Shown here one piece after another: positions 7,514 to 52,820 of a stretch of DNA of 64,000 nt. The DNA lies in NCBI RefSeq assembly GCF_023277925.1, contig NZ_CP063832.1:2744001-2808000 (forward strand). The letters run 5' to 3'. Below the pieces are notes generated by a model. The model ran no database searches. It was not told the DNA's origin and worked only from the letters and a program-made list of their open reading frames with translations. This DNA is from Pseudomonas entomophila. Lineage in GTDB: Bacteria; Pseudomonadota; Gammaproteobacteria; Pseudomonadales; Pseudomonadaceae. Position numbers and translations under genes: made by a program. Numbering within the stretch: position 1 is the stretch's first letter; every line of letters starts with the position of its first letter.

Positions 7514-8440
7514 TTATCCCACGACCTTGCGCAGTTGCTGGCGTACCCAGGCTTCGGCGCTGACCATGATCACCCCAAGCAGTACCATCACCGCGCCGAT
7601 CACGAAGTTCAGGCTTAACGGCTCATCGAGCAGCAGCACGCCGAAGGTCACGCCGAACAACGGTGTAATGAACGAGAATACCGCCAGGTTCGACGCCAGG
7701 TACTTGCGCAGCAACCAGAACCAGGTCAGGTAACTCACAAAGGACACCACGATCCCCTGGAAAAGCACACTGCCCACCGCCAGCGGCGTCAGCGAGAAAT
7801 CGGCGATCTGCCCGCTGATCAGGGCGATCAGCACCAACCCGACAAACCCCACCGCCAACTGATAGAACAAGGTCAAGGTCACCGGTGCCTCGGACAATCG
7901 CGAGCCACGCACCACCACCGTGGTCGCGCCCCAGGCCAACCCTGCCAAGATCGCCAGGCCATCACCCAGCAACATGCGGCCATCGAGCTGATCGAGGGAA
8001 ATACCGCCAGCGAAGGCCAGGGCGATCCCGCCGAACGCCAGCAGGATGCCCAGCCACTGCAACAGCCGCAGCCGCTCGCTGGGCATCATGAAATGCAACC
8101 CGAGCGCTGTGAAGATCGGCGCGGTGTAGAGGAATACCGACATATGCGCCGCCGAGGTCAGCTTCAGCCCCTCGGCGATGAACAGGAACTCCAGGCCGAA
8201 CAAGCCACCGGCCAGCAGCCCGGCGCGCCAGGTCGTGCCAACCTGCCCCCAGCCACCCTTGAAGCAGACCAGCAGCCCCACCAGCAAGGCGGCAATGCCA
8301 TTGCGAAACGCCGCCTGCACCACCGGGGCGATATCCACGGCGGCGGACTTGATCAACACTTGCTGGCAGCCCCAGACCAGGCATAGCCCCAGCATGACCT
8401 GGAAGGCGAAGGCGTCGGGGTTCTTGCGGGCCGCTGTCAT
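7514..8440 (-). CDS. EamA/DMT-family transporter
   Basis: The 308-residue protein has ten predicted membrane segments made of two EamA repeats (about residues 12-145 and 158-295). Typical features are GLCLVWGCQQVLIK at the start and the second-repeat motif LLRKYLASNLAVFSF. GAGAGGG precedes the ATG. Members export amino acids, nucleobases or drugs; the substrate here is unknown. It is transcribed alone, between a REP pair and a divergent small exported protein gene. Confidence 0.85.
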   Translation of the reverse strand: MTAARKNPDAFAFQVMLGLCLVWGCQQVLIKSAAVDIAPVVQAAFRNGIAALLVGLLVCFKGGWGQVGTTWRAGLLAGGLFGLEFLFIAEGLKLTSAAHMSVFLYTAPIFTALGLHFMMPSERLRLLQWLGILLAFGGIALAFAGGISLDQLDGRMLLGDGLAILAGLAWGATTVVVRGSRLSEAPVTLTLFYQLAVGFVGLVLIALISGQIADFSLTPLAVGSVLFQGIVVSFVSYLTWFWLLRKYLASNLAVFSFITPLFGVTFGVLLLDEPLSLNFVIGAVMVLLGVIMVSAEAWVRQQLRKVVG

Positions 8441-8630
8441 GGGCGCCCTCTCGTCTGGCTGGATATCATTGCAAGGCTCGGCTGTGAGAATGGATCCCGA
8501 TTATTGAATGCACGAGCCAACGGATGCCAGGCCAATTTTCAACGCCAGCCATTTATATAGGGCCCGGCAGAATGAACTTCTTCCTCATTCAAGTTTTCAA
8601 CCGAACAGCCACTCGCTGGAGGAAAACGCA

Positions 8631-11044: not shown

Positions 11045-12337
11045 ATGGACATCCAACGCATCTGGCATGACACCCTCGACCTCTGGGGGACCCTCGACCA
11101 ACATCCACTGCTGCATGCCGCGCTCGGGCTGGGCGTGCTGCTGCTCGTCTCGCTGCTGGTCGGCCGCCTGGCCCGCTTCCTGGTCCTGCATGCCAGCCGC
11201 CTGCTGGCCCGCCAGCCCGCGCTTCGGTGGCTCGACGATCTGCGCCAGAACAAGGTGTTCCACCGCCTGGCCCAGACCACCCCCTCGCTGGTGATCCAGT
11301 TCGGCCTGAAGCTGGTGCCGGAGCTCTCCGACACCGCCCAGCACTTCCTGGGTAATTTCGCCCTGGCCTTCACCTTGCTGTTCATGACCCTGGCCCTGTC
11401 GTGCCTGCTCGATGCCCTGCTGGACATCTATGCCCGTACCGAACATGCCCGCACCCGCTCGATCAAGGGCTACGTGCAACTGGCCAAGATGATGCTGTGG
11501 ATCTTCGCCGCGATCGTGATCGTCGCCACCCTCATCGACCGCTCGCCGCTGTTACTGTTGTCCGGCCTGGGCGCCATGTCGGCGGTGCTGCTGCTGGTAT
11601 ACAAGGATACATTGCTGTCGTTTGTCGCCAGCGTGCAGCTCACCAGCAACGACATGCTGCACGTGGGTGACTGGATCGAGATGCCCCAGGTCGGCGCCGA
11701 CGGCGATGTGGTGGACATCACCTTGCACACGGTCAAGGTGCAGAACTTCGACAAGACCATCGTCTCCATCCCCACATGGCGCCTGATGAGCGAGTCGTTC
11801 CGCAACTACCGCGGCATGCAGCAGTCGGGCGGGCGGCGCATCAAGCGCAGCCTGTTCATCGACGCCGCCGGGGTGCGCTTCCTCACACAAGAAGAAGAAC
11901 ACCGTCTTAGTCAGGTTCGCCTGCTCGGCGACTACCTGGCGCAGAAACGCCAGGAGCTGCACAGCTGGAACGAGGCCCTGGGCCCGGTGGCGGAGCTGGC
12001 CGCCAACCGCCGCAAGCTGACCAACATCGGTACCTTCCGCGCCTTCGCCCTGGCCTACCTGAAGAACCACCCCAACGTACACCCGGACATGACCTGCATG
12101 GTCCGCCAGATGCAGACCACCGCCGAAGGCGTGCCGCTGGAGATCTACTGCTTCACCACCACCACGGCATGGGCCGAGTACGAGCGCATCCAGGGCGATA
12201 TCTTCGACTACCTGCTGGCGGTGCTGCCGGAGTTCGGGCTGAGCCTGTACCAACAACCCAGCGGCAACGACATGCGCATCGGATTGGCTGGCAGGTATCA
12301 ACTGGAGCAGGAGCCCCACGCGTACAGCAACGTCTGA
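11045..12337 (+). CDS. MscS-family mechanosensitive ion channel (YbdG-like)
   Basis: The 430-residue protein has about five membrane segments in the first 190 residues, then an MscS beta domain (HVGDWIEMPQVGADGDVVDITLHTVKVQNFD, here split across about residues 208-240). The pore-lining helix precedes it (LSGLGAMSAVLLLVYKDTLL). A long soluble C-terminal part follows. Length and layout resemble E. coli YbdG, the miniconductance channel that opens in mild hypo-osmotic shock. It is divergent from the helicase gene. No strong ribosome binding site precedes the ATG. Confidence 0.8.
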   Translation: MDIQRIWHDTLDLWGTLDQHPLLHAALGLGVLLLVSLLVGRLARFLVLHASRLLARQPALRWLDDLRQNKVFHRLAQTTPSLVIQFGLKLVPELSDTAQHFLGNFALAFTLLFMTLALSCLLDALLDIYARTEHARTRSIKGYVQLAKMMLWIFAAIVIVATLIDRSPLLLLSGLGAMSAVLLLVYKDTLLSFVASVQLTSNDMLHVGDWIEMPQVGADGDVVDITLHTVKVQNFDKTIVSIPTWRLMSESFRNYRGMQQSGGRRIKRSLFIDAAGVRFLTQEEEHRLSQVRLLGDYLAQKRQELHSWNEALGPVAELAANRRKLTNIGTFRAFALAYLKNHPNVHPDMTCMVRQMQTTAEGVPLEIYCFTTTTAWAEYERIQGDIFDYLLAVLPEFGLSLYQQPSGNDMRIGLAGRYQLEQEPHAYSNV

Positions 12338-12661: not shown

Positions 12662-13879
12662 ATGCGCCAAGACATCTCCCTGGAAAAACTCGACGAGCCG
12701 GATGGCGCCGACCACACCACACGCCGCAAGGCGCTGGCCGCAGGCAGCCTCGCCCACGGCGTGCACGACGGCCTGACCGATGTGATCTACGTGCTGCTGC
12801 CCATCTGGCAGGCGGCCTTTGGTCTCAGCTACGCCCAGGTCGGCCTGCTGCGCGGCGCTTATGCCGGGATGATGGCCGGTTTTCAGTTACTGGCCAGCCG
12901 CGGCGCGCGTCGCTGGGGACGACAAGCCCTGCTGGTCAGGGGCACCGCCCTGGCCGGTTTCGCCTACTTGCTGGCCGCGCAGGCCACCGACATCACCCTG
13001 CTGCTGCTGGCCTTGATGATCGGCGGCCTGGGTGCCAGCACCCAACACCCCCTGGCCTCGGCCCTGGTCTCGGATGCCTATGACGGCAGCGGCCGGGTCA
13101 AGCAGGCCCTGGCCCAGTACAACTTCGCCGGCGACATCGGCAAGGCCATCATTCCGGGGCTCACCGGTCTGGCGCTGGTGTACATCTCATGGCAGGCCAA
13201 TGCCACCCTGCTGGGGGCGCTCGGCATCGCCGCCGCTTTCGCCCTCTGGCTGCTGATGCCCAGCACCCAGGCCCACGACAAGGCCAGCAAGAAGGCCGGC
13301 AGCACCGACCAGGCCGGCAGCACGTCGGGCCTGATGGCGCTGATCGCCACCGGCACCCTCGACAGCGGCGTGCGCATGGGCTTCCTCACGTTCCTGCCGT
13401 TCCTGCTGCAAAGCAAGGGCGCCAGCACCGAGCACATCGGCCTGGCGCTGTCCCTGCTGTTCATCGGCGGTGCCTTCGGCAAGCTGTTCTGCGGCTACCT
13501 CGGCGCACGCCTGGGGCCGGTGCGCACGGTGATCTGCACCGAACTGCTCACCGCCCTGTTGATCCTGCTGGCGCTGGTACTGCCCTACGGCGCGCTGATG
13601 CTGGTCATGCCGCTGATTGGCGTGGCCCTGAACGGCACCTCGTCGGTACTTGGCGGCCTGGTGCCGGACTTCGCCCCCCGCGACCGCCGCGATCGGGTGT
13701 TCGCCTGGTTCTATACCGGCACCGTCGGTGGCGGCGCCCTGGCGCCGGTGCTGATCGGCGCAATCTCCGACCAGGCGGGGGTGAATGAGGGGCTGGTAGT
13801 GCTGGCCTGCGTGCTACTGCTGACCCTGCCCCTGTGCCTGGTCACCTACAACGGCATGAAAGGCCTGACCCGACGCTGA
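12662..13879 (+). CDS. MFS exporter, fosmidomycin-resistance-like
   Basis: The 405-residue protein has twelve predicted membrane segments. Between segments four and five it shows GLGASTQHPLASALVSD and then ALAQYNFAGDIGKAIIPG. This matches the layout of the Fsr branch (fosmidomycin resistance), where a Gly-rich turn, His-Pro and a LAQ..(N/G)..G..G pattern occur. It is the first gene of a tight four-gene operon (gaps of 40, 36 and 27 bases) ending in PEP phosphomutase. Fsr-type pumps export phosphonic acid antibiotics, so export of, or self-protection against, the operon's product is the natural inference. It starts at 12662; the 212 bases upstream hold the palindrome at 12510 and no gene. Confidence 0.8.
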   Translation: MRQDISLEKLDEPDGADHTTRRKALAAGSLAHGVHDGLTDVIYVLLPIWQAAFGLSYAQVGLLRGAYAGMMAGFQLLASRGARRWGRQALLVRGTALAGFAYLLAAQATDITLLLLALMIGGLGASTQHPLASALVSDAYDGSGRVKQALAQYNFAGDIGKAIIPGLTGLALVYISWQANATLLGALGIAAAFALWLLMPSTQAHDKASKKAGSTDQAGSTSGLMALIATGTLDSGVRMGFLTFLPFLLQSKGASTEHIGLALSLLFIGGAFGKLFCGYLGARLGPVRTVICTELLTALLILLALVLPYGALMLVMPLIGVALNGTSSVLGGLVPDFAPRDRRDRVFAWFYTGTVGGGALAPVLIGAISDQAGVNEGLVVLACVLLLTLPLCLVTYNGMKGLTRR

Positions 13880-13919
13880 GCTGGATGCCTGCGGATCGCC
13901 AACAACAAGGATGTGAACC

Positions 13920-15122
13920 ATGACCTACGAACTCTCGGCGCGCGCCGGCCGCATCGGCGCGCCCGGCACCTCGAGCATGCGCAGCAAAGCCAACGCCCTG
14001 CGTGACGCCGGCATCAAAGTGATCAACTTCGCAGCCGGCGAGCTGGCCACGGATGCAGCGCCGGACATGCGCAGCGGCGCCATCGCCGCGGTGCACGAAC
14101 AGTGGAACCGCTACACCCCGCCATTGGGTAACCCGCGCCTGCGCCAGGCATTGGCCAACAGTGTCAGCCAGCGCCTGGGCGTCACCTACGGCGCCGATGA
14201 AATCGCCGTGTCCAGCGGCGCCAAACAGGCCCTGTTCAACAGCGCGATGGTACTGCTCGATCCTGGCGACGAAGTACTCATCCCACGCCCCTACTGGGAG
14301 ACCTTCCCCACCCAGGTCGAACTGGCCGGTGCAAGCCCGGTGTTCATCGACACCCGGGCCGACCAGTACTCGTTGCGCAGCGCGGCGGTGAAAGCCGCCC
14401 TGTCACCACGCAGCAAGGCGATCATCATCAACACCCCGAACAACCCCACCGGCGTGGTCTATTCGCCCCAGGAACTGCTCGCCATCGGTGAACTGGCCCT
14501 GGAGCGCAAGCTCTGGGTCATCTTCGACGAGTGCTATCGCGGCCTGCTGCGCGGCGGCCAGCAACACCACAACATCGTCAGCCTGCTGCCCGAGCTCAAG
14601 GGATCGACCATCGTCATCGACTCGTTCTCCAAGAGCCAGGCCGTGACCGGCTGGCGGCTGGGCTATGCCTGCGCCCCCAAGGCGGTGGTCACGGCGATGC
14701 ACAACCTGCAGGCGCACACCACCTCCAACCCCAGCAGCCTGGCCCAGTACGCCGCGTTGACCGCCCTGGATGGCGAGGGCGCGCAACGCTTCGCCGCCGA
14801 CATCAACGCCCAGCTCGACCGCCAACTGGCGACGGCCACCGCCCTGCTAGGCCAGCTCGAAGGGATCCGCTTCGCACCGCCCCAGGGTGCCTTCTACCTG
14901 TACCTGGACATCGGCGACCTGCTGGGCAAGCGCTATCAGGACCAACCCCTGCGTGACGCCAGCCACCTGTGCGAGTTGCTGCTGACCGAGGCGCGCATCG
15001 CCCTGGTGCCCGGCTGCAGCAATGGCGACCCTCGCGCCGTGCGGCTCTCTTACTCGGTTAGCGAAGACGACCTGGTCGAAGGGCTGGGGCGCTTCGCCAC
15101 CTTCATCGCATCGCTTGCCTGA
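13920..15122 (+). CDS. Class I/II pyridoxal-phosphate aminotransferase, probably acting on phosphonopyruvate
   Basis: The 400-residue protein is a fold-type I aminotransferase of the AspC/AAT group. Visible are the substrate-side start (INFAAGELATDAAP), the ring-stacking Tyr region (YTPPLGNPRLR), NTPNNPTG at about 175-182, the Schiff-base lysine K238 in SFSKSQAVTGWRLGY, and the carboxylate-binding Arg near 377 (VRLSYSV). It lies between the exporter and the HDO-like gene in the phosphonate-type operon. In that setting the likely substrate is phosphonopyruvate, giving phosphonoalanine and pulling forward the unfavourable PEP mutase reaction. General aspartate or aromatic aminotransferase activity cannot be excluded. 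Confidence 0.8.
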   Translation: MTYELSARAGRIGAPGTSSMRSKANALRDAGIKVINFAAGELATDAAPDMRSGAIAAVHEQWNRYTPPLGNPRLRQALANSVSQRLGVTYGADEIAVSSGAKQALFNSAMVLLDPGDEVLIPRPYWETFPTQVELAGASPVFIDTRADQYSLRSAAVKAALSPRSKAIIINTPNNPTGVVYSPQELLAIGELALERKLWVIFDECYRGLLRGGQQHHNIVSLLPELKGSTIVIDSFSKSQAVTGWRLGYACAPKAVVTAMHNLQAHTTSNPSSLAQYAALTALDGEGAQRFAADINAQLDRQLATATALLGQLEGIRFAPPQGAFYLYLDIGDLLGKRYQDQPLRDASHLCELLLTEARIALVPGCSNGDPRAVRLSYSVSEDDLVEGLGRFATFIASLA

Positions 15123-15158
15123 ACCCGGACCTCCCCCCACCAACCGCGAGATCATGAC

Positions 15159-15986
15159 ATGAAGAAAACGGATTTCATGCTGTCATTCGTTGACCAGGCG
15201 CTGACCGATGTCCAGGACAAACGCCTGGCCAGCGCCCTGAGAAAGGGTTTCGACGTTCACGACGACCTGCTCGGTGACTACCTGGACACCTACCAGCGCA
15301 TCACCTCCGAGCCCTGGTCGCGCGACAGCCTGTGCACCTTCTTCTGCGGATGGCGCAGCCCGGATGGCGCCGCACATGCGGTGTCCAGCATCATCGTGCG
15401 ATTGCTCCAGGAGTCCGAGGCACTCGACGATGACCAAAACCGCCTGCGCCTGCTGGAGGCCGCGCGCCACTGCGGCGAGATCATCGTCGAGGATATCGGC
15501 CTGGGCGAGATGCACGGCCACCCGCACCACTCCAAGCTGTATGCGCGCATGGCCACGGCGATCTGCGGCTCGGACGACTGGCGCCTGCAGGACCGCTACC
15601 TGAACCCGGTGACCAAGGAATTCTCCAGTTGGGTCGGCAACAAGCGCCCGCTCGCCCCGCAACTGGTGGAAGCCATCGAGATGATGGCGATGACCGAGCT
15701 GTTCAACACCGGCGAATACAACGTGATGACACCCTTGTGGAAAGACTGGCTGAAGCAGGTGCAAGGCAAGCCCGCAGGCGAAGCGCACCGTATCGCCACC
15801 TTCCTCAGCGTGCATTGTGGCGCGGTCGAGGCCCAGCATTTCTTCCATGCCACCAGCGCCCTGGAACTCTATTGCCAGGCCACGGCACAGGCGCTCGACT
15901 ACACGCGGATCGAGGCGTTGTCGTGCGAATACGTGCAACGTGCCTGCGCACACCTGCACAAGATGGAGTCGGTCCTGACCGTCTGA
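15159..15986 (+). CDS. Iron-containing redox enzyme, heme-oxygenase-like fold (putative)
   Basis: The 275-residue all-helical protein fits the iron-containing redox (HDO) superfamily. Recognisable pieces are VEDIGLGEMHGHPHHSKLY at about 110-128, corresponding to the family's E...G.G....H..LY block, then AMTELFNTGEYNVMTP at about 177-192 (the E...P block) and FLSVHCGAVEAQHFFHA (about 215-231). Candidate metal ligands are E111, H124, E180, H219, E224 and H227. Spacing in the last block is one residue longer than the form I recall. Family members use O2 to cleave, decarboxylate or N-oxidise amino or fatty acids. Between an aminotransferase and PEP mutase, a phosphonoalanine-like substrate is plausible. 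Function inferred. Confidence 0.6.
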   Translation: MKKTDFMLSFVDQALTDVQDKRLASALRKGFDVHDDLLGDYLDTYQRITSEPWSRDSLCTFFCGWRSPDGAAHAVSSIIVRLLQESEALDDDQNRLRLLEAARHCGEIIVEDIGLGEMHGHPHHSKLYARMATAICGSDDWRLQDRYLNPVTKEFSSWVGNKRPLAPQLVEAIEMMAMTELFNTGEYNVMTPLWKDWLKQVQGKPAGEAHRIATFLSVHCGAVEAQHFFHATSALELYCQATAQALDYTRIEALSCEYVQRACAHLHKMESVLTV

Positions 15987-16013
15987 CACCCCCCTGATCA
16001 AGGAAGTGGCCCC

Positions 16014-16904
16014 ATGAACATCGTGAATCCCGATTCGCGCATCGACCTGCGCCAACTGTTCCATGACAAACCTTGCCTGCGCGTGCTGGAGGCGCACAGC
16101 CCGATATCGGCCATGCTGGCCAAGAACGTGCGCCTGGAGGCGCGCGGCGCCAGCCTGGGCTATGACGCCATCTGGTCCAGTTCGCTGACCGACTCGACCC
16201 AGCGTTGCCTGCCTGACATCGAGATCCTCTCGCCCAGCGACCGCCTCGAGCGGCTCAACGAGATCCTCGGGGTGTGCGACCTGCCGCTGATCTACGACGC
16301 CGACACAGGTGGCAAAGTCGAACATTTCGCCATCCATGTGCAGTGGCTGGCGCGCGCCGGCGTCTCGGCGATCGTCATCGAGGACAAGTGCGGCTTGAAG
16401 AAGAACTCCCTGCTGGGCCTCTCGGTGCACCAGGAGCAGGAGACGGTGGAGCACTTCTGCGAAAAGATCAGGGCCGGCACGCAACACCGGCCCGGTGACC
16501 GGATGATGATCTTCGCCCGCTGCGAGAGCCTGATCCTGGAAAAAGGCCTGGAGGATGCCCTGGCCCGTTGCAGCGCCTACACCGAGGCCGGTGCCGACGG
16601 CATCATGATCCACAGCCGCAAGCGCAGTGGCGAGGAGATCCTCGACTTCGCCCGGCGCTTCAAGCACCGCCACCCCGCCACACCGCTGATCTGCGTGCCC
16701 ACCAGCTACCCGCAACTCACGTTCTCGTGCCTGGCCGACGCGGGCTTCAACGCGGTGATCTACGCCAATCACATGCTGCGCGGTGCCTACTCGGCCATGC
16801 GCCAGGTGGCCACCAGCATCCTGGAGAACGACCGCGCCTACGAGATCGAGCCGGCCTGCATGCCCATCGACGAGATCCTCAGCCTGGTGCCGGGTACCCG
16901 CTGA
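16014..16904 (+). CDS. pepM: Phosphoenolpyruvate phosphomutase
   Basis: This 296-residue protein is a phosphoenolpyruvate mutase/isocitrate lyase superfamily member. It carries the PEP mutase signature EDK-x5-NS (E123, D124, K125 ... N131, S132), which separates true mutases from lyases and carboxymutases of the same fold. Also seen are IWSSSLTDS at 53-61, the magnesium-binding YDADTGG at 94-100 and the C-terminal VIYANHMLRGAY. It converts PEP to phosphonopyruvate, the entry step for almost all natural phosphonates. No phosphonopyruvate decarboxylase gene is present nearby; the aminotransferase two genes upstream may take the pulling role. It ends at a strong terminator. Confidence 0.9.
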   Translation: MNIVNPDSRIDLRQLFHDKPCLRVLEAHSPISAMLAKNVRLEARGASLGYDAIWSSSLTDSTQRCLPDIEILSPSDRLERLNEILGVCDLPLIYDADTGGKVEHFAIHVQWLARAGVSAIVIEDKCGLKKNSLLGLSVHQEQETVEHFCEKIRAGTQHRPGDRMMIFARCESLILEKGLEDALARCSAYTEAGADGIMIHSRKRSGEEILDFARRFKHRHPATPLICVPTSYPQLTFSCLADAGFNAVIYANHMLRGAYSAMRQVATSILENDRAYEIEPACMPIDEILSLVPGTR

Positions 16905-16952: not shown

Positions 16953-17837
16953 TCAGGCGGCGCTCAGGTAGGAGAGCAGTTCGGTGACATGGCGGGGCAT
17001 GCTATCGGTGTGCCTGACCAACATCATGTGAACCTGCCGCGCCCAGGCTTCCTCCAGGGGCCGTGCCACCAATGCGCAGCAGCGCAAGTAGCGCTGCACC
17101 GCCGCGTCCGGCGCGACACCAATACCCACGCCCTCGGCGACCATCCGGCAGAACGCTTCACCCGTGGACACCTTGATCCTGAACTGCGCCTCGCTGCCAT
17201 CGTCCCGCGCCTGCTCCTCGATCAGTCGGCTCAGGGCAGTATCACCGCACAGGCCCACCTGCGGGTGTTGCAGCACATCGCGCAGGCGCAGTGTCGCCGC
17301 GTTAGCCAATGGGTGACGACGGGGCAGCACGACCACATAGTTGAGCACCGGCATGGCGATCGAAGCGCAGCCTTCCACCGGCGCACCGCCCGCGACCAGC
17401 CCCATGTCGACAAACCCTTCCCGCACGCCCCGGACAATCTCACCCGGGTTGCGTGCCTGCAGGTCGATGGCGATGTGCGCGTGCTCCGCCAGGTAGCGCA
17501 CCAGCCGCTGCTGGGTGGACTCGAAGGCCGTGAAGCCGTCGACGTACATGCGCATGCAGGCCACATCCTGTTCTTCGTGCCGGTCGAACTCGGCCTTGAG
17601 CACCTCCAACTGGCCGAGGATCTTGCGGGCATGGACCAGCAGGCGCCTGCCCGCCGCCGTCAGCACCAGGCCTTTGTGCTGGCGAAGGAACAGCCCCTCG
17701 CCCAGCTCGCCCTCCATCGATTTGATGCGCATGCTCGCCGCGCCGGGTGACAGGCAGGCACGCCGGGCACCCTGGGTCAGGCTGGGCGACTCGGCAATCT
17801 TTATGAACAGCTTCAGGTCAGTCAGGTCAAGGTTCAC
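16953..17837 (-). CDS. LysR-family regulator, probable regulator of the phosphonate-type operon
   Basis: The 294-residue protein has the LysR winged helix (LKLFIKIAESPSLTQGARRACLSPGAASMRI) split over residues 8-40 and the usual effector domain with a VRGVREGFVDMGLV stretch. It is convergent with the PEP mutase gene across only 48 bases, and the next genes belong to other families. This makes it the best candidate for binding the palindrome at 12510. That link is inferred from proximity. Confidence 0.8.
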   Translation of the reverse strand: MNLDLTDLKLFIKIAESPSLTQGARRACLSPGAASMRIKSMEGELGEGLFLRQHKGLVLTAAGRRLLVHARKILGQLEVLKAEFDRHEEQDVACMRMYVDGFTAFESTQQRLVRYLAEHAHIAIDLQARNPGEIVRGVREGFVDMGLVAGGAPVEGCASIAMPVLNYVVVLPRRHPLANAATLRLRDVLQHPQVGLCGDTALSRLIEEQARDDGSEAQFRIKVSTGEAFCRMVAEGVGIGVAPDAAVQRYLRCCALVARPLEEAWARQVHMMLVRHTDSMPRHVTELLSYLSAA

Positions 17838-17994: not shown

Positions 17995-18876
17995 TCAACG
18001 CGACGAAGTCGCCCCTGGCAGCAGCGCTCGCTGGCCGCCCAGGCGGCTCAGCCACACCGACGCCAGGATGATCAAGCCGCCGATGGCCAGGCGCCCCAGC
18101 GGTTCGTCCTGGTTCCAGATCAGCAGGTTCAGCAACAGCCCCACCGGCACATGCAGGTTGTTCATCACCGCCAGGGTGCCGCCAGACACCAGGCAGGCGC
18201 CCTTGTTCCACCAGTACAGCCCCAGCGCGGTCGGGCACAGGCCGAGGAACAGCAGTACCAGCCATTGGGTGTCGGTGCTCGGCAGGCGCTGGGTGTTGCC
18301 AAACAGCAGGAAGGCCGGCAGCACAACGATCAACGCGCCCAGGTAGAAGTAGCCGAAGCGCCGGTAATGCGGCAGGTCACTGGGGTAACGGGCGACCAGG
18401 TGACGATACAGCACCTGGCCGGCGGCATAGGTGAAGTTGGCCAGTTGCAGCAGCAGGAAGCCGATGAAGAACTCGCCCGAAATGGTGTCGAAGCGGATCA
18501 CCGCCGCACCGGCCACCGCCACCAGCGCGGCCAGCAGCGCCCAGGGGTTGAAGCGCCGGTTCAGGGCGTCCTCGATCAGCGTGACGTGCAGGGGGGTGAG
18601 GATGGTGAACAGCAACACCTCGGGCACGGTCAGCACGCGGAAGCTCAGGTACAGGCAGACGTAGGTGATGCCGTACTGCAGTGCGCCGATCAGCAGCATC
18701 GAACGCAGGAAGCGTGGCTCGACCTGGCGCCAGCGGGTCAGCGGCAGGAACACCAGCCCGGCCAGAACCACCCGGGCGAGCACAGCGAAATAACTGTCGA
18801 CATGGCCGGCCAGGTACTCGCCGATCAGGTTGAAGGAGTACGCCTGGATCAGCGCGACGATTATCAGGTAGCCCAT
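17995..18876 (-). CDS. EamA/DMT-family transporter
   Basis: The 293-residue membrane protein has ten predicted segments in two EamA halves. The N-terminus lacks a long leader (MGYLIIVALIQAYSFN) and the first half contains VLARVVLAGLVFLPLTRWR, typical of drug/metabolite exporters. It ends in a strong terminator. The substrate is unknown. It is upstream of the LysR gene in the same direction but separated from it by 157 bases and the terminator, so it is probably a separate unit. Confidence 0.85.
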   Translation of the reverse strand: MGYLIIVALIQAYSFNLIGEYLAGHVDSYFAVLARVVLAGLVFLPLTRWRQVEPRFLRSMLLIGALQYGITYVCLYLSFRVLTVPEVLLFTILTPLHVTLIEDALNRRFNPWALLAALVAVAGAAVIRFDTISGEFFIGFLLLQLANFTYAAGQVLYRHLVARYPSDLPHYRRFGYFYLGALIVVLPAFLLFGNTQRLPSTDTQWLVLLFLGLCPTALGLYWWNKGACLVSGGTLAVMNNLHVPVGLLLNLLIWNQDEPLGRLAIGGLIILASVWLSRLGGQRALLPGATSSR

Positions 18877-45544: not shown

Positions 45545-46300
45545 TCAAACACCAAACCTAGCATCATCAAAACCTTCATAGAGCCTCACCAGATTATTAC
45601 AAGCCCCCATTATCTTCCCTCTCCTAGAATGAAAACCTTTACAACAGACATTCTTCCCACACCAATCGCGAATATAACAAGCACCTACAAACATAGGACA
45701 AACAACATGCTCACCCGCAAAATCAAACGACATCTTATGCTTCTCGTATCTCAGATACGCAGGAATGCCTTCCGAATTACCATCGCACCCCGGATATACT
45801 CCAGACATGCCTAGACCTATCCCCTCGCACCTCAAGAGGGACTCAACCACGACCTCAATATAGTCTCCTCTGTTCAAACCAGAACCAACAAACATATCAA
45901 ATAAACATTTCCCAGGTATTCCGCTCAGAGTGAGATTACTCATACCACCATAGAGCCCCACCAGTTTTTTACACCATTCAATCACTACTCCTCTATCAGT
46001 AACCACCTCCCTATCACACCACTCCTCTATATACTTTGCGCCTTCAGCCATTGAGCAAACAACATACTCATCCATATACTCGAAAGACATATCAAACCCA
46101 TAAGGATCCAAATAGTCCGGGACACTTAGAACGTCACTATCACACCCAAGATAAACACCTACCATCTCCAGCCCTACACCCTCAAACCTCAGAAGACTAT
46201 CAATTAAAATATCCAGACAACTCTCATACCTCAAGCCATCCGACATATACAACACCCCCATACAAGCCCTCATTATCTCTCTATCATCAACGCTAAGCAT
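45545..46300 (-). CDS. Tandem double-domain immunity-like protein (251 aa)
   Basis: The protein consists of two diverged copies of one domain of about 120 residues (about 1-125 and 126-251). Each has the pattern LLxxEGxGLxMxGVYxGCD, a xxPxYL turn, a MSFxx...EHVVC-like block and WC near the end. The same domain makes up the next two genes upstream. The ATG at 46300 follows GGAAGAGG, and alignment with the paralogues confirms it (all begin 12 residues before a conserved Cys). The low GC and position behind an Rhs toxin support an immunity role; the fold is not identified. Confidence 0.65.
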   Translation of the reverse strand: MLSVDDREIMRACMGVLYMSDGLRYESCLDILIDSLLRFEGVGLEMVGVYLGCDSDVLSVPDYLDPYGFDMSFEYMDEYVVCSMAEGAKYIEEWCDREVVTDRGVVIEWCKKLVGLYGGMSNLTLSGIPGKCLFDMFVGSGLNRGDYIEVVVESLLRCEGIGLGMSGVYPGCDGNSEGIPAYLRYEKHKMSFDFAGEHVVCPMFVGACYIRDWCGKNVCCKGFHSRRGKIMGACNNLVRLYEGFDDARFGV

Positions 46301-46388
46301 GCTTGCCTCTTCCCTCAAGTGCTTGATATCAAATCACTTCATTTCTCTCTTTCAGAAACCACTTCCATCATGCGTCACCTTAATCCCA

Positions 46389-46748
46389 TCACCCACCGTA
46401 TAGACTCATTAAACACTGACACTTCCCCATCACCTCCCTCTTATTCTTGTTTACATTTATCTCACACCACTCACTAATCTTTCTCGCCCCTTCAGACATT
46501 TCATATATGGCGCTCTCACCGATGAACTCAAATGCCATTCCATTTTCAACACCAACTAAATATCTCGGGACATTATCAAAATCTTCGTCTCGCTGAATAT
46601 ACACACCAGACATTTCAATCCCCATACCTTCGAACTGCAACAAACACTCAAGCAAAACATCAAGATAACTTTCCACATGCAAAGCCCCAGAATCCCTAAA
46701 ATCCATCAGGCATGCACCAACAATCTCATCACAACTAAATCCCTTCAC
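46389..46748 (-). CDS. Immunity-like protein, single domain (119 aa)
   Basis: This is a paralogue of both neighbours: LLQFEGMGIEMSGVY, VPRYL, MAFEFIGESAIYEMSEGA, ISEWCE and a final LMSLYGG. The GTG at 46748 is chosen because TAGGTGG lies 5-6 bases upstream and because the resulting N-terminus aligns without gaps to the first-copy protein (M-K then 11 residues to Cys). A GTG at 46757 adds three residues. It lacks the C-terminal extension of the copy next to rhs. Confidence 0.65.
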   Translation of the reverse strand: MKGFSCDEIVGACLMDFRDSGALHVESYLDVLLECLLQFEGMGIEMSGVYIQRDEDFDNVPRYLVGVENGMAFEFIGESAIYEMSEGARKISEWCEINVNKNKREVMGKCQCLMSLYGG

Positions 46749-46891
46749 GACGCCCACCTAACCCAATGAAACGCACTGACTATCACCCAATACCCCCTAA
46801 TCCAAGCCTACATATCAACCCATAACTCCTATCTTCCTACCTCTTACGGTGTGAAGTCCCTCAATTTTCCAGCGACACTCTAACCCCCCTC

Positions 46892-47269
46892 CTACCTCCC
46901 AGCAAAACAATCCCCATCATAGAGCGATACGAGCTTATTACACGCATACAGAACGGCTTCCCTCTCACAGTAAATTTTTTCATTACACCAAGCACGTATA
47001 TGCCTCGCCCCCTCTGACATAGTGCAGACATAGATCTCACCCATAAACTCAAAAGCCATATATCCCTTACGGCCAATTAAATATGAAGGAATCATCTGAA
47101 AATCCTCATCACACGCCAAGTAAACACCAGACTCCTCCACAGCAACTCCTTCATACACCAACAGCTTTTCAAGCATCACAAGCATATAGCTATCTGCATA
47201 ACTACTTGAGCACTCCCTGAACCCCGCCAAACAATTCCATATAATTGACTTATCGGCTTCTAGTTTCAT
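46892..47269 (-). CDS. Immunity-like protein directly behind the Rhs toxin (125 aa)
   Basis: The first gene after the toxin tip, and so the likely cognate immunity protein. It shows LLVYEGVAVEESGVYLACD, IPSYL, MAFEFMGEIYVCTMSEGA and IRAWCNE. The ATG at 47269 agrees with the paralogues; a GTG at 47278 overlaps the rhs stop and would add three residues. Immunity proteins bind the toxin tip and protect the producer from itself and its sisters. It resembles, from memory, small CdiI-type immunity proteins of ribonuclease toxins; this is not certain. Confidence 0.7.
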   Translation of the reverse strand: MKLEADKSIIWNCLAGFRECSSSYADSYMLVMLEKLLVYEGVAVEESGVYLACDEDFQMIPSYLIGRKGYMAFEFMGEIYVCTMSEGARHIRAWCNEKIYCEREAVLYACNKLVSLYDGDCFAGR

Positions 47270-47274
47270 TTTAC

Positions 47275-50200
47275 TCACTTCATGGATGGATGGAAATTAA
47301 CTACTACACCCGCATCATCTCTATAGACCCTGAACTTTATACCACGAAACACCGAATTATAAATTCTTTCACCACTTTTCAACGACCCCTGATAACCTAA
47401 AACCGCAGCTTCAAGACCTGCCTCATAAATCTCATCAGTAGAAATCACCCGAGGATCATATACAGTCTTAGGATTATCGAACTTTTTAATACCTACAACT
47501 TCCAACGCAGATGTCAGTTTATCCCTACCGTAAGTAATCTCAGAAATCCCTGGCGGGCCAGCCCGCTCCGAGAGCACATGCAAACCTAGATCATCAACAG
47601 CCCTCATGAACTCCTCTCTGTCATGCACCCCTTTCACTCCGGGCTTTACGGAGTACCCATCAAATTTTGACAAATGATCTTTTATACCCGCCTTAATAGA
47701 AATTCCTTTATAACTACATATCTCCGGACAAACCGACGACAACCCCAACGGATCCACCCACCCCGTCGGATTCACACCATACAAGTACCCATTGACCCCA
47801 CCCGCCAATCCAATCGGATCCGGCGTTAGATACCGCCCTGTCTGTGGGTTGTAATAACGGTGTCGGTTGTAATGCAGCCCGGTTTCTTCATCGTAGTACT
47901 GCCCCTGGAATCGCAGGGGGTTGTCGATGTGGTCCACGTCCAGGCGCAGGACAAGGCCATAGGCGCGGTAGCGCGCCGACCAGCGAACGCGCCCGCTGCT
48001 CGAGGTCAACTCCTGGGGCGTGCCGAGGTGGTCGAGGTGGTAGTGCAGGGTTTCGGCGGGACCGTCGCCGTCGCGCAGCAGCATCACCATGGGGCGGAAG
48101 CCGCCGGGTTCGTAGACGTAGCTGCGCCAGCGGCCCTGGCAGTGCTCGGCCAGCAGGCGCTCGCCCTGCCAGATGAACGTGGTGACGGTGTCGCCGACGG
48201 CCTTGGACACGCGGCGGCCGAAAGCGTCGTAGCGATAGCGGGCCTGGCGGCCGTCGGGTAGGTCGACGCAGGCCAAGCGGTGCTGGCTGTCGTAGTGGTA
48301 GCGGGTGACCAACTGCTGGCCATGGCCGCGGCGCTCGCTCACCTGGTTGCCGAAGCGGTCGTAGTCGTAGTGGCTGTCGCCGTGCATCAGCAGGCGGTTG
48401 GCCTCGACCCGCACATCGCGCGGGTCGCCGCGCAGGCCGCTCTGGGCCAGGAGGTTGCCGGCGGGGTCGTGGACGAAGTACTCGGCCAGCTCGCCGCGCA
48501 CGGCGGTCAGGCGGTCCAGGGGGTCGTACTGGTAGGTGCGGGTGCCGCGGCGGGTGTCTTCCAGGCGGGTGAGGTTGCCGCAGTCGTCGTAGTGGTAACG
48601 CCGCAGGAACACCGAGCCTTCCTTGCGATCGACACGCTGGGCCAGCAGGCGGCCCTGGCCGTCGTACTGGAACTGACTGAGCAGGTCGCCCTGCTGGCGG
48701 GCCACTTCGCGGCCAAGGTGGGTGCGGTGGGTGGTCAGGCGCTGGCCGTCGAGGTCGATGGCCTGCAGGTAGTCGCCGGGCTGGTAGCGGTAGCCCAGGC
48801 GGCTGCCGTCGGGCAGCCGGCAGTGGCTGATCCGGCCCATGGCGTCGTAACCGTAGTGCAGGGTCGCCCAGCCCTGGTGCTCGGTTACCAGGCGGTCGCA
48901 CAGGTCATACGTGTAGGCCAGCGGCCAGTGGCCGTCATCCACCTGCACCAGGCGGCCGAGGGCATCGTAGCTGTGCTTGATCTGCTGCCCGTCGGGCAGG
49001 GTCTTGACCAGCAACCGGCCCCGTTTGTCCCGTGTGTAGCGGGTCAGCCACGGCTCACCGGCCTCGCCGTGCTCGGTCTTTTCCAGCAACTGGCCGTTGG
49101 GGTCGTAGCGGTAGCGGGTGACCTGCCCGTCGAAGCCGGTCTCCTCGGCGAGCAGGCCATTGCGGTGGTAGGCCAGGCGGTAGCGTTCGCCACGCTCGTT
49201 GACCACCTCCGACAATTGCAACTGGGCGTTGTCGTAGCGGTAGCTGAGAAAGCTGCCATCCGGGTCGATGCGCCGGGACGGCAGGTGCAGCCCGTCGTCG
49301 TATTCGAAGCGGGTCACCCGCCCCAGTTCGTCGCGCTGGGCGGTCACCCGGCCATAGGCGTTGTATTCATAGCGGCGCACGCCGCCACCGGGCAACGACA
49401 CCTCGCTCAGGCGCCCGGCCAGGTCCCACTTGTACTGGGTGACCGCGGCGTTCTCGCGCTGGCGCATCACCAACCGGCCCAGGGCGTCGTAGCGGTAGCG
49501 CCGCGAGCCGCCGCCCGGCAGGGCTTCGCTGACCAGCTGCCCGGCGGCGCTCCAGCCCAGCTCGTGCAGGCTGCCGTCGGCCTGGCGGATGCCGACCAGG
49601 CGACCCTGCGGGTCGTACAGGTAACCGGTGACCTGCCCGCACGGGTCGGTCTGGCGGATCACGTCACCCTGGGCATTGCGCTGGTACAGCCAGCGAGCCT
49701 GGCCACGGCGTACTTCGCAGACATGGCCGTCGCGGTAGTGGTAGTGGGTCGCCTCGCCGTCTTCGGGCCGCACCGACAGCAAGTGCCCGGCGTCGTCGTA
49801 GCTGTAGACGGTTTCGGCGCCCAGCGGATTGCGCTCGGCTATCAAGCGGCCGTGAGCGTCGTAGGTCTTGTGGTGCTCGGCGCCATCGGCGTCGACCTGG
49901 CGCACCAGCCGGGCCTTGTCGTCGTGCTGGAAGACCTGCTGGCTGCCGTCGGCGTTATGCACCGTGACGGCGCCCAGTCCATCCCACTGGTAGCGCGCCT
50001 CCAGGCCCGGCACGCTGGACCAGTGGCGCACGCAGCGGGCCTGCTTGCCTTCGCCCTCCCATTCCCAGTAGAACGCCGCGCCGCCCGCCAGCCGCCGCTC
50101 GAGGATGACGTTGGCGGCGTCGTAGCGGTAGCGCTCACGCTCGTCCAGGCCGTTGCCCGCCTCGATCAGTTGCCCGGCGTCGTTGTAGTGGTAGCTGGCC

Positions 50201-52083
50201 AGGGTCGCCACGCACACCCAGGGCGACTGCTCGCGGCCCTTCGCATCCAGCAGCGGCTGGCGCACCTGCAGCTCCAGCGCCACCAGGCGGCTGGCCTGGT
50301 AGGCCAGGTACAGGCGGTTGCCGGCGCCGTTGTCGACATGCTCCAGGCGCCCGGCGCGGTCATGGCCCAGGGCGAGGCGGTTGCCGTAGGCGTCGCTCAG
50401 GGCCACCAGGCGGCCGTCGATGAAATGCAGGTAGCGCGGGCGCTCGCCGGCCTCGGCGATCACCAGCTCGCCCTCGGCCTCACCGAGGAAGATCGCCGCG
50501 TTGCTCAGGCTGTTGCAGATGAATGGGCGGCGGCTGTCGGGCATCGGGAAGCGGGTGCGACGGTTCTCGTGGTCGCACCACACCACGCCCTGGCCGTCGG
50601 CCTGCAGCTGGTGGCACAGGCTGTGGCTCCATCCGGGGCCCAGGCCGTGGTCGATCTCGGCCGCGCTGGTGCGGTACATCCGCACCCAGGCCAGCGGCAG
50701 CACGCCGAACAACTCGGCATCCTGCAGTGTGAGCAGCTCCTCGCCGGTGACCATCGACACCGGGCAACGGTTTGTGACGGTCTCGTCGGCGCGCTGGGCA
50801 GGCTTGTCGCTGGGGGTGCGGGGCTGGCTGGGGGCGTCGGGCAGGTCCGCTTCCGGCTCCACCCGCAGAGTAGCCTGACGCTTGCCGCGCACCACCGAGA
50901 CGGCGTCGTCCACCAGCATGTCGAGGTCTTGCGGGGCGCTCTTGATGGCCAGCGGCACCTTGGCCGCGCTGTTGACCTCGACGCTGCCGCCCGTCAGCAG
51001 CGGCTTGGCCAGGCGGGCATGGGCCGCCAGGGCGTGGTCGCGGCTGAGGTCGATCAGCCGTTGCAGGCTTGCGAGCAGGTCGCTGGCGAAACCGCCAGCG
51101 TGCTTGAGGGCCTTGGCGGTAAGCCGGAACGCCAGGCCCAAGCCTCCGGACAGCACGATGCCCAGCAACACGTCGAGCAGCAGGCCGGCATTGAGCATGG
51201 CGTAGGCCTGGGCCTGCCATTCGGGCGGGGTCAGGGCGAGCCACTGCAGGATCGCGGTGGCATAGAAGAACATCAGCAGCTCGTCGTGAAGCATCAGGTT
51301 GGCGGTATGCAGCAGGCTGGCCGCCTGGGCCTTGAGCTTCTGGAAGTCCGCCTCGCTGATGTGCTGCAACAGCTTGTCGCGGGCACCATCGAGGTTGAAC
51401 AGCAGCTTGACCAGGGTCTTGAGGTCGTCGAGCAGGTTCATCAACGCGCTGCTGACACCCTCGTACATCGCCGAGTTGATGTCCTTCAAGCGCTGCCACG
51501 ACCCCACCGGCGGCATGCGGTCCCAGTGCGGGCCAATGCGCTCGGCCCACTCGCTGTCGAGCCAGCCCTTGAGCTGGTCGAGCAGGCCGTCGTAGGAGCC
51601 GTGCAGCGCCTGGATTTCGGCCGGGCCGACCTTGGGGTGGAACAGCAGCGTGTAGCGGCGGTTGGCATGGCAGCCGCTGATGGTGGCCCGGCCGTGCTCG
51701 TCGAGCAGGCCCTCGAAACGCTGCGGGGCCTGGCCTGGCGGCACTTGCTCCACCAGTTCGTAGGGCGTGCCACCGATGGGCACGAAGGCCAGGCTCTCGA
51801 AGCGGTGCACGATGTTCAGCACGCCATTGGCCGGGCAGTTGGCGTAGCCAGTGATCGCGCGTGCCCCCAGCCCCTTGGCCTGGCGCATCACCTCGTTGCC
51901 CTCGCTGTCGCTCAAGCGCAGCTCCTGCTCAAGGTCCAGCGCCCAGCCCAGCCACAGGGTGTCCTGCAACTGCTCGAAAGTGGCCAGGCTGTGCTGGCGG
52001 AAGTGGTCTATCCGCGCCGGGCCGTCGGGCTTGTGGGCGTCGAAGTTGTCGTAGAGGAACTTGGCGTAGATGAGGAGGCTCAT
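47275..52083 (-). CDS. Rhs-family type VI secretion effector with variable C-terminal toxin
   Basis: The 1602-residue protein has three parts. An N-terminal region (1 to about 480) has hydrophobic stretches near 290-350. A long Rhs/YD-repeat cage starts near NRCPVSMVTGEELL, with dozens of YRYDxxGR-type repeats, and ends at DPIGLAGGVNGYLYGVNPTGW and DPLGL. A 154-residue tip follows (47278-47739) with DHLSKFDGYS, GVHDREEF, KTVYDPRVIS and a final FRVYRDDAGVVVNFHP. The tip resembles CdiA/Rhs ribonuclease-type toxins I recall. GC drops sharply at the tip. The start overlaps the DUF4123 stop (ATGA). No PAAR domain is visible. Confidence 0.88.
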   Translation of the reverse strand: MSLLIYAKFLYDNFDAHKPDGPARIDHFRQHSLATFEQLQDTLWLGWALDLEQELRLSDSEGNEVMRQAKGLGARAITGYANCPANGVLNIVHRFESLAFVPIGGTPYELVEQVPPGQAPQRFEGLLDEHGRATISGCHANRRYTLLFHPKVGPAEIQALHGSYDGLLDQLKGWLDSEWAERIGPHWDRMPPVGSWQRLKDINSAMYEGVSSALMNLLDDLKTLVKLLFNLDGARDKLLQHISEADFQKLKAQAASLLHTANLMLHDELLMFFYATAILQWLALTPPEWQAQAYAMLNAGLLLDVLLGIVLSGGLGLAFRLTAKALKHAGGFASDLLASLQRLIDLSRDHALAAHARLAKPLLTGGSVEVNSAAKVPLAIKSAPQDLDMLVDDAVSVVRGKRQATLRVEPEADLPDAPSQPRTPSDKPAQRADETVTNRCPVSMVTGEELLTLQDAELFGVLPLAWVRMYRTSAAEIDHGLGPGWSHSLCHQLQADGQGVVWCDHENRRTRFPMPDSRRPFICNSLSNAAIFLGEAEGELVIAEAGERPRYLHFIDGRLVALSDAYGNRLALGHDRAGRLEHVDNGAGNRLYLAYQASRLVALELQVRQPLLDAKGREQSPWVCVATLASYHYNDAGQLIEAGNGLDERERYRYDAANVILERRLAGGAAFYWEWEGEGKQARCVRHWSSVPGLEARYQWDGLGAVTVHNADGSQQVFQHDDKARLVRQVDADGAEHHKTYDAHGRLIAERNPLGAETVYSYDDAGHLLSVRPEDGEATHYHYRDGHVCEVRRGQARWLYQRNAQGDVIRQTDPCGQVTGYLYDPQGRLVGIRQADGSLHELGWSAAGQLVSEALPGGGSRRYRYDALGRLVMRQRENAAVTQYKWDLAGRLSEVSLPGGGVRRYEYNAYGRVTAQRDELGRVTRFEYDDGLHLPSRRIDPDGSFLSYRYDNAQLQLSEVVNERGERYRLAYHRNGLLAEETGFDGQVTRYRYDPNGQLLEKTEHGEAGEPWLTRYTRDKRGRLLVKTLPDGQQIKHSYDALGRLVQVDDGHWPLAYTYDLCDRLVTEHQGWATLHYGYDAMGRISHCRLPDGSRLGYRYQPGDYLQAIDLDGQRLTTHRTHLGREVARQQGDLLSQFQYDGQGRLLAQRVDRKEGSVFLRRYHYDDCGNLTRLEDTRRGTRTYQYDPLDRLTAVRGELAEYFVHDPAGNLLAQSGLRGDPRDVRVEANRLLMHGDSHYDYDRFGNQVSERRGHGQQLVTRYHYDSQHRLACVDLPDGRQARYRYDAFGRRVSKAVGDTVTTFIWQGERLLAEHCQGRWRSYVYEPGGFRPMVMLLRDGDGPAETLHYHLDHLGTPQELTSSSGRVRWSARYRAYGLVLRLDVDHIDNPLRFQGQYYDEETGLHYNRHRYYNPQTGRYLTPDPIGLAGGVNGYLYGVNPTGWVDPLGLSSVCPEICSYKGISIKAGIKDHLSKFDGYSVKPGVKGVHDREEFMRAVDDLGLHVLSERAGPPGISEITYGRDKLTSALEVVGIKKFDNPKTVYDPRVISTDEIYEAGLEAAVLGYQGSLKSGERIYNSVFRGIKFRVYRDDAGVVVNFHPSMK

Positions 52084-52820
52084 GGGGTGATGTCCTTGTT
52101 CACGTGCGCCAGCAGCCGTTCCATGGCTGGCGTGTCGAGCGGGGCACCCAGGGCCAGGCGCTCGACCTTGCAGCGCAGGGTGGCCTCGGGGAGGGCGAAG
52201 TAGAGATCGGGGTGGACCTCGCGCAGCCATTGCATGAGGTTGTCGATGACCGGGCCGGGGTCGCGCCGGTGCAGGTGCTCGAGCAGTTCGGCGCTGACCG
52301 GCCACCAGGGAAACGGCTCGATGTTCAAGCGTGCGGCCTGGCGCAATGGGCGCGCCTGGCCGTTGCTCCAGACCCGGCTGAACACCGGCAGCAACGCAGG
52401 CGCCCCGGCCTGCTCGTGGTCGAGCAGGGCCAGCAACTGGTGGCCGTCCCACAGGCGCAGGAACACCGCGGTGCCGTCCGGCAGCTTCACCTGGGTCAGG
52501 CTGCGCAGGTAGTCGAACACCTGGGCGGGCGGGTACGACGACACCGCCAGCCAGCCCCAGTCACGGCAGCGGGCAGTGCCGCACCAGGTGAGGAAGTCGC
52601 CCTGGGGCGCGGCTTCCACCAGGTAGGGCATGGCTTCGAGCCAGCCGGCGTAGGGGGTGCCTTTCCACAACGGCATGGGCACTTGAAGACCATCGTGGCG
52701 GCGGTAGGCCGCCAGCGCGTCGGCTTCGCTGACGCTGCCGAATATGGCGTACAGGCGTTCGCCATCGGCCAGGGGATTGGCCGCGAGCCAGGCTTCGGGG
52801 GTGAGGGTTTCACAGGCCAC
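52080..52820 (-). CDS. DUF4123 effector adaptor/chaperone (Tap)
   Basis: The 246-residue protein has the DUF4123 layout: EAWLAANPLADGERLYAIFG near the start, TPYAGWLEAMPYLVE, FLTWCGTARCRDWGWLAVSS and FLRLWDGHQL. DUF4123 proteins load a specific effector onto the VgrG spike. The GTG at 52820 has AAGGAGG 5-6 bases upstream and is preferred to GTG 52826, which abuts it. It overlaps vgrG by 11 bases and rhs by 4, so the three genes are coupled. Confidence 0.85.
   Translation of the reverse strand: MACETLTPEAWLAANPLADGERLYAIFGSVSEADALAAYRRHDGLQVPMPLWKGTPYAGWLEAMPYLVEAAPQGDFLTWCGTARCRDWGWLAVSSYPPAQVFDYLRSLTQVKLPDGTAVFLRLWDGHQLLALLDHEQAGAPALLPVFSRVWSNGQARPLRQAARLNIEPFPWWPVSAELLEHLHRRDPGPVIDNLMQWLREVHPDLYFALPEATLRCKVERLALGAPLDTPAMERLLAHVNKDITP

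Follow-up and report, generated by a model that had tools for sequence, protein, structure and literature searches.

What a compact set of Pseudomonas genes might make is the question raised by a locus in the window, by which we mean the whole 64,000-nucleotide stretch analysed here (C1:2744001-2808000 of a 5,755,740-base, single-contig genome, G000). Four genes lie on its forward strand with gaps of 40, 36 and 27 bases; they are real and are placed where the original prediction had put them. They encode an MFS transporter and proposed product exporter (12662..13879, 405 aa; Pfam MFS_1, E 5.1e-40), a class I/II pyridoxal phosphate (PLP) aminotransferase (AT) proposed to be a phosphonoalanine-forming phosphonopyruvate transaminase (13920..15122, 400 aa; Aminotran_1_2, E 2.1e-62), a proposed heme-oxygenase-like diiron oxidase (HDO) acting on phosphonoalanine, termed HDO1 (15159..15986, 275 aa; no Pfam match, fold from a model), and the putative phosphoenolpyruvate (PEP) mutase PepM (16014..16904, 296 aa; Pfam PEP_mutase, TIGR02320). 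A fifth gene on the reverse strand, convergent with pepM, encodes a LysR-type probable regulator (16953..17837; Pfam HTH_1 and LysR_substrate). The gene set probably makes and exports a carbon-phosphorus compound, and our best explanation of the locus, held with good confidence, is a five-gene genomic island proposed to make and export a small phosphonate. All five genes are under purifying selection relative to P. soli (L073), with dN/dS values of 0.115 (MFS), 0.181 (AT), 0.105 (HDO1), 0.115 (PepM) and 0.202 (LysR).

Enzymes encoded by the block

The gene at 16014 encodes a predicted PEP mutase, neither a hydrolase nor an isocitrate-lyase-like enzyme, as judged from family models. The protein scored 420.7 bits against the NCBIfam model TIGR02320 (PEP_mutase; curated equivalog cut-off 319.55), 154 bits against the hydrolase model TIGR02321 (cut-off 374.4) and 101 bits against the methylisocitrate lyase model (cut-off 354.4). 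An isocitrate-lyase-like identity was likewise rejected. The EDK-x5-NS loop is the motif of PEP mutases, and its asparagine, as opposed to threonine, separates mutase from hydrolase activity. The loop reads EDKCGLKKNS in the window protein, as had been noticed in the original prediction, and the motif is intact in the 11 aligned cluster PepM proteins and in those of L068, L089 and L070; the window asparagine is replaced by threonine in a hydrolase-like gene of genome G155 (EDKTFPKDTS) and in PDB entry 2dua. A single-sequence PDB search returned a phosphonopyruvate hydrolase as the best match, with a mutase narrowly behind. In a PepM tree of 18 rows, with very long branches and no characterised mutase among the rows, the cluster proteins stood apart from three further superfamily members of the window genome (26-32% identity to PepM). 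The 11 cluster rows grouped with the protein of L068 (genome G145) at 92/96, and the cluster proteins alone grouped weakly (82/59).

The second gene is indeed an aminotransferase by its Aminotran_1_2 match, as first suggested, and it adjoins HDO1 in all 21 loci described below. Its best PDB sequence match was the aspartate aminotransferase 1j32 (E 1.6e-75), and none of the best 25 of 81 NCBIfam models reached its cut-off. It carries the motifs GAKQALFN (from 100), SFSKSQAVTGWRLG (from 235) and RLSYS (from 375), among them those of the PLP lysine and of the arginine that binds the carboxylate. On its motifs, the AT is a class I/II PLP enzyme of the aspartate-aminotransferase type, as expected of a PnaA-type transaminase. 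In the phosphonoalamide pathway, PnaA, which belongs to the same transaminase superfamily, transaminates phosphonopyruvate to phosphonoalanine with aspartate as the donor and thereby couples the PEP mutase PnaD, according to the available part of PMC11867202. The original prediction had remarked on the lack of a phosphonopyruvate decarboxylase. None is present in the annotated block (no genome-wide search of that family was made), and the absence is not in itself odd, since pulling a PEP mutase by transamination has a characterised precedent in PnaA and PnaD (same part of PMC11867202).

The third protein, HDO1, had no family match in Pfam, NCBIfam, PADLOC or the PDB, either as single proteins or as a 42-row alignment composed of 34 of the 56 homologues, the window protein and seven sequences of the paralogous HDO2 (six fragments and some near copies were excluded). 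Its AlphaFold model (pLDDT 93.6) adopts the seven-helix heme-oxygenase-like fold of diiron oxidases, and D112, H124, E180, E186, H219, E224 and H227, candidates for the three histidine and three or four carboxylate ligands of an HDO metal site, are invariant. HDO1 is thus predicted by modelling to have the HDO fold; the HDO-like character first proposed stands as a model-based fold, but is invisible in sequence libraries. The spacing of D112 and H124 in the first helix and the H-x4-E-x2-H pattern in the third are presumably unlike the spacing in CADD. A profile comparison with PF14518-type proteins gave a probability of 9.7%, the open reading frame (ORF) having come from only 15 of 30 loci, with 13 rows, some perhaps misframed, which makes the comparison a weak one. 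The protein is 97% identical to the HDO of P. entomophila. Many conserved polar sites distinguish HDO1 from HDO2 (35 versus 7 rows), among them R66, H73, R142 and R250, which HDO1 has and HDO2 lacks. A third subfamily of 330-357 aa (L020 1120-2193 and L025 1195-2187), without a Pfam or NCBIfam match, shares all the candidate metal ligands, and remote matches of this kind were found in 10 Pseudomonas genomes lacking HDO1 and HDO2.

Conserved company and the insertion site

A scan for HDO1 loci, with one genome per species, yielded 21 loci: 19 in Pseudomonas, one in Roseateles depolymerans and one in Citrobacter youngae. Neighbours were counted by identity thresholds (40% or more for MFS). AT and HDO1 were present in all 21, PepM and MFS in 19 each, HDO2 and a second exporter, MFSX, in 17 each, and a fumarase, FumC, in 8. 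The linkage of AT, HDO1 and PepM thus holds in 19 of the 21 loci and across three genera. The C. youngae locus (L092) carries the four-gene block in the window order, MFS-AT-HDO-PepM. The Roseateles locus (L089) runs PepM-HDO1-AT-FumC. Its PepM belongs to another lineage, with 33% identity, a TIGR02320 score of 307.7, just under the cut-off, and the loop EDKLFPKSNS. As this divergent mutase keeps the same HDO, AT and FumC, the association survives mutase replacement. The usual Pseudomonas layout is LysR2 | MFSX-HDO2-MFS-AT-HDO1-(FumC)-PepM; most relatives hold the block within a larger cluster to which another HDO and another exporter belong, joined in some of them by a fumarase. Two clusters, L076 and L077, have a further LysR gene between MFS and AT (at about 7530-8480; 46-47% identity to LysR2).

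In a survey of 199 Pseudomonas genomes, nine had HDO1 (at 71% identity or more). Each of the nine also has a PepM over the cut-off, found in 11 of the 199 in all. HDO2 accompanied HDO1 in all nine, versus only 5 of the other 190 genomes. Nothing close to the Citrobacter cluster turned up in E. coli genomes, a plasmid search with the HDO returned only two remote relatives, and among 368 genomes of the wider class, drawn besides G000, HDO1 was found in none at E<=1e-5, with a remote relative in one.

The insertion site of the block was examined through its right-hand neighbour, an EamA transporter gene (17995..18876, reverse strand), a core gene found in 181 of the 199 Pseudomonas genomes, with a terminator-like site on its strand just beyond its end (17977-17952). 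The left border is an MscS-type channel gene (11045..12337, forward strand), which lies outside the pathway. Of 30 EamA loci examined among the 181 genomes, 3 contained the cluster, 5 had an MFS gene alone between MscS and EamA, 8 had MscS directly beside EamA, one had it about 1.1 kb off, and 13 had neither within 1.5 kb. Relatives therefore retain the empty insertion site. DNA comparison of six cluster-less sites revealed no trace of AT, HDO1, PepM or LysR, and the inserted unit is consequently MFS-AT-HDO1-PepM together with LysR, which is retained in P. entomophila (L072) and P. soli (L073). The originally proposed extent thus held for the four genes, but fell short of the fifth, which carries the unit to 17837.

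The exporter had been called Fsr-like. It is an MFS protein of the same broad family as E. coli Fsr, but the similarity is remote (23% over 321 aa, E 6.8e-9), with no sign of orthology. The exporter family (E<=1e-110) was present in 48 of the 199 Pseudomonas genomes, nine of them being the cluster genomes; the other 39 had neither PepM (E<=1e-60) nor HDO1. Among the 34 of these 48 exporter places that were examined, 26 were exporter-only, comprising 12 with MFSX beside MFS, 5 insertion-site copies and 9 with MFS and no MFSX. Nearly all of the 12 adjoin a LysR2 fragment at the edge of the locus. In the exporter tree, which has several unresolved forks and long branches, exporter-only copies nest among the cluster copies. 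We read them as immunity retained without production; general efflux is a possible alternative function.

The remaining HDO-containing loci and two further observations are described here. In the window genome, a LysR2 | MFSX-HDO2 unit lies elsewhere, at 2140 kb of C1 (L044, G000:C1:2133000-2148000), and the gene after it matches ATP-grasp families weakly; the unit's HDO2 gene (L044 7445-8329, reverse strand) is accompanied by an MFS gene and a divergent LysR gene. This unit may serve a separate amino-acid or peptide pathway. HDO2 units without PepM were seen in four further Pseudomonas genomes (L047, L048, L049 and L050). L048, which was scanned for families, carries ATP-grasp-like, AbrB-type, DmpG-type aldolase, acylating acetaldehyde dehydrogenase and aminotransferase genes, and the other three have a similar ORF layout. 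Remote HDO relatives on an Azospirillum plasmid and in one genome of the wider class are each paired with an MFS transporter in a two-gene unit next to a divergently oriented regulator (L131 8959-11085 and L133 5182-8509), so that a minimal HDO-exporter unit recurs; a further remote relative, on a Nostoc plasmid (L132 8905-16971), directly precedes two long ORFs reading like non-ribosomal peptide synthetase genes. A hydrolase-like PEP mutase relative (EDKTFPKDTS) in L071 (5047-7285) is adjoined by an aminotransferase (34% identity) and an ABC-permease-like gene, a probable phosphonoalanine catabolism locus. Elsewhere in the window, an RHS-repeat protein gene (47275-52452, reverse strand; region 45545-52452) gives way to a stretch of low GC (GC 0.456 and, at 46001-48000, GC skew -0.447 over the same interval) that contains an orphan ORF of 257 aa, an arrangement resembling Rhs loci with variable tips.

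Proposed pathway and its rivals

In the favoured explanation, PepM would convert PEP to phosphonopyruvate, and the AT would pull this unfavourable step by forming L-phosphonoalanine, probably with aspartate as the donor, as with PnaA. HDO1, as a diiron oxidase, would oxidise phosphonoalanine with O2, the MFS protein would export the bioactive phosphonate product, and LysR would control the gene set. We regard this pathway as a whole as likely. By analogy, the PepM and AT steps would follow the established chemistry of their families. The substrate of HDO1, the order of steps, export and regulation are inferred, with linkage suggesting the HDO1 step and family membership suggesting export. The route originally proposed was right in outline, in its mutase, aminotransferase and HDO fold, and is partly supported overall. 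For the HDO1 reaction, N-oxygenation to a hydroxylamine, oxime or nitro compound is a serious candidate short of being probable, and C-C cleavage, in which decarboxylation would give an aminovinyl-, aldehyde- or nitrile-type phosphonate, is an equally serious one. Desaturation or hydroxylation at C-beta seems rather unlikely, and a reaction of another type would be a surprise.

The cluster FumC of 8 of the 21 loci (461 aa), absent from the window block, bears on what related clusters might make. Two copies scored 720.6 and 728.7 bits against TIGR00979 (fumC_II; equivalog cut-off 664.75), fell below the cut-off of the other fumarase model, NF009089, and slightly exceeded that of the aspartate ammonia-lyase subfamily model PRK12273 (513.7 and 520.3; cut-off 510). 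The motifs GSGTQSNM, HPND, GRTHLQD and GSSIMPGKVNP match those of E. coli FumC. The cluster copies formed one clade at 100/97 (a 12-row tree in which one Roseateles gene is counted twice); compared with the best other FumC from nine Pseudomonas genomes, they show 55-58% identity. The Roseateles copy shares 73% identity with a cluster copy from Pseudomonas, while the figure for the other FumC of its genome is 48%. From this clade and these identities, the cluster FumC appears to travel with the cluster and not to be a recent host duplicate. By analogy with duplicated target enzymes, the product of FumC-bearing clusters may inhibit fumarase, and the extra gene suggests a fumarase-directed product. 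Related clusters that carry another HDO together with a fumarase probably oxidise their product further, and the fumarase there probably serves to protect the producing cell.

It is possible, though we doubt it, that the cluster FumC is instead a pathway enzyme, adding a group to a phosphonate intermediate or removing one. The aspartase/fumarase superfamily, to which this FumC belongs, does include enzymes of natural product biosynthesis, such as nitrosuccinate lyase, and the PRK12273 scores fit such a role. The TIGR00979 scores and the intact E. coli motifs argue for a genuine fumarase, the nitrosuccinate lyase model gave only 49 and 46 bits, and FumC is missing from 13 of the 21 loci that retain AT and HDO1, as expected of an optional gene. 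Going further, we put forward as a speculation that these loci form an undescribed, widespread family of phosphonate clusters, in which an HDO would oxidise phosphonoalanine, an aspartate mimic, to a fumarase-directed antimetabolite; producers would be guarded by exporters and in part by a drug-insensitive fumarase, and many non-producers would retain only exporters and a regulator, as immunity. This full scenario is tentative, and we would not yet call it probable.

In a different account of HDO1, the cell would export unmodified phosphonoalanine, or a conjugate formed from it later and elsewhere, and HDO1 would be accessory, acting for instance on another amino acid such as aspartate, with its product co-secreted. 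Two sets of observations favour it and weigh against phosphonoalanine oxidation by HDO1: L090 and L091 retain AT and HDO1 in genomes without a PepM match at E<=1e-60, and the paralogous HDO2 is found, with no PepM, in simple regulator-HDO-MFS units of five Pseudomonas genomes, of the Azospirillum plasmid and of G403. HDO1 without a genomic PepM is nevertheless confined to 2 of the 21 loci and to none of the nine survey genomes, and HDO2 departs from HDO1 at the conserved polar sites mentioned above. L090 and L091 may be decaying clusters, since a weak 18-aa FumC-like scrap (E 0.004) follows HDO1 in L090. We consider the accessory role unlikely. Attachment of phosphonoalanine to a cell-surface polymer is more improbable still. 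The nearest non-cluster relatives of PepM (59%) and AT (51%) form a pair in G145, with no HDO match there, and lie with nucleotidyltransferase, sulfatase-family and glycerophosphotransferase-like genes (L068 7167-13960) in a probable surface phosphonate cluster. Such genes are missing both from the window block and from what the 21 loci conserve, and the block has instead an MFS transporter, relatives of which also occur without biosynthetic genes. A catabolic operon, in which a transaminase and a phosphonopyruvate hydrolase would degrade phosphonoalanine alongside an oxidase, is very improbable: a class I/II AT does stand beside a PEP mutase superfamily protein whose nearest PDB sequence is a hydrolase, but the TIGR02320 and TIGR02321 scores and the loop asparagine point to a mutase.

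Known systems and biological meaning

The favoured pathway, from PEP through phosphonoalanine to an oxidised and exported phosphonate, was compared with described systems. The phosphonoalamide pathway of Streptomyces, in the available part of PMC11867202, likewise combines a PEP mutase with an aspartate-aminotransferase-type enzyme and no decarboxylase, in keeping with the predicted phosphonoalanine branch; the window block differs in lacking ATP-grasp ligases and in having an HDO, PnaA and PnaD being compared by description only. The main text of that paper mentions neither Pseudomonas nor a fumarase or an oxygenase. The flavophos cluster of Burkholderia, as described in the part of PMC12871164 available, is likewise small, contains PepM and an exporter, and carries a duplicate of its target enzyme, lumazine synthase, which confers resistance and offers a model for the cluster fumarase. 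It uses a 2-phosphonomethylmalate route, with no transaminase or HDO described in that part, and a flavophos-type cluster was rejected as the identity of the window block. Pnt-type surface clusters (PMC6697681, in the part available) share PepM, and the sister PepM-AT pair of G145 looks like one; the window block differs from these in having no nucleotidyltransferase or surface transferase.

Characterised HDOs act mostly on amino or fatty acids, according to the available part of PMC13108848. MboA, the HDO of the Pseudomonas toxin mangotoxin, works on a peptide and was found by screening HDOs beside ATP-grasp genes (PMC13185094, in the part available), and the main text of that paper nowhere uses the words pepM, phosphonate or phosphonoalanine. 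HDO1 differs from the known HDOs (UndA, BesC, HrmI, RohS, PolF, AetD, SznF, MboA and CADD) in belonging to no detectable sequence family and in its PepM partner. We know of no O2-dependent iron enzyme of its kind linked to phosphonate chemistry. Searches of open-licence PMC full text, a scope outside which subscription papers and non-PMC preprints fall, brought up neither a description of a PepM-HDO cluster nor one of a fumarase-aimed phosphonate; within that literature no characterised cluster matching the gene set was found, in support of the earlier remark that no characterised natural product is known from exactly this set.

If the proposed pathway is true, it would bring HDO chemistry into phosphonate biosynthesis and open a new branch beyond phosphonoalanine, for the reconstitution of which three enzymes would suffice. 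The optional fumarase would then amount to a concrete target prediction, namely fumarate hydratase. Genomes of producers, set against those that carry only the exporter, would likewise constitute a natural experiment in how pseudomonads wage chemical warfare on one another and become immune to it.

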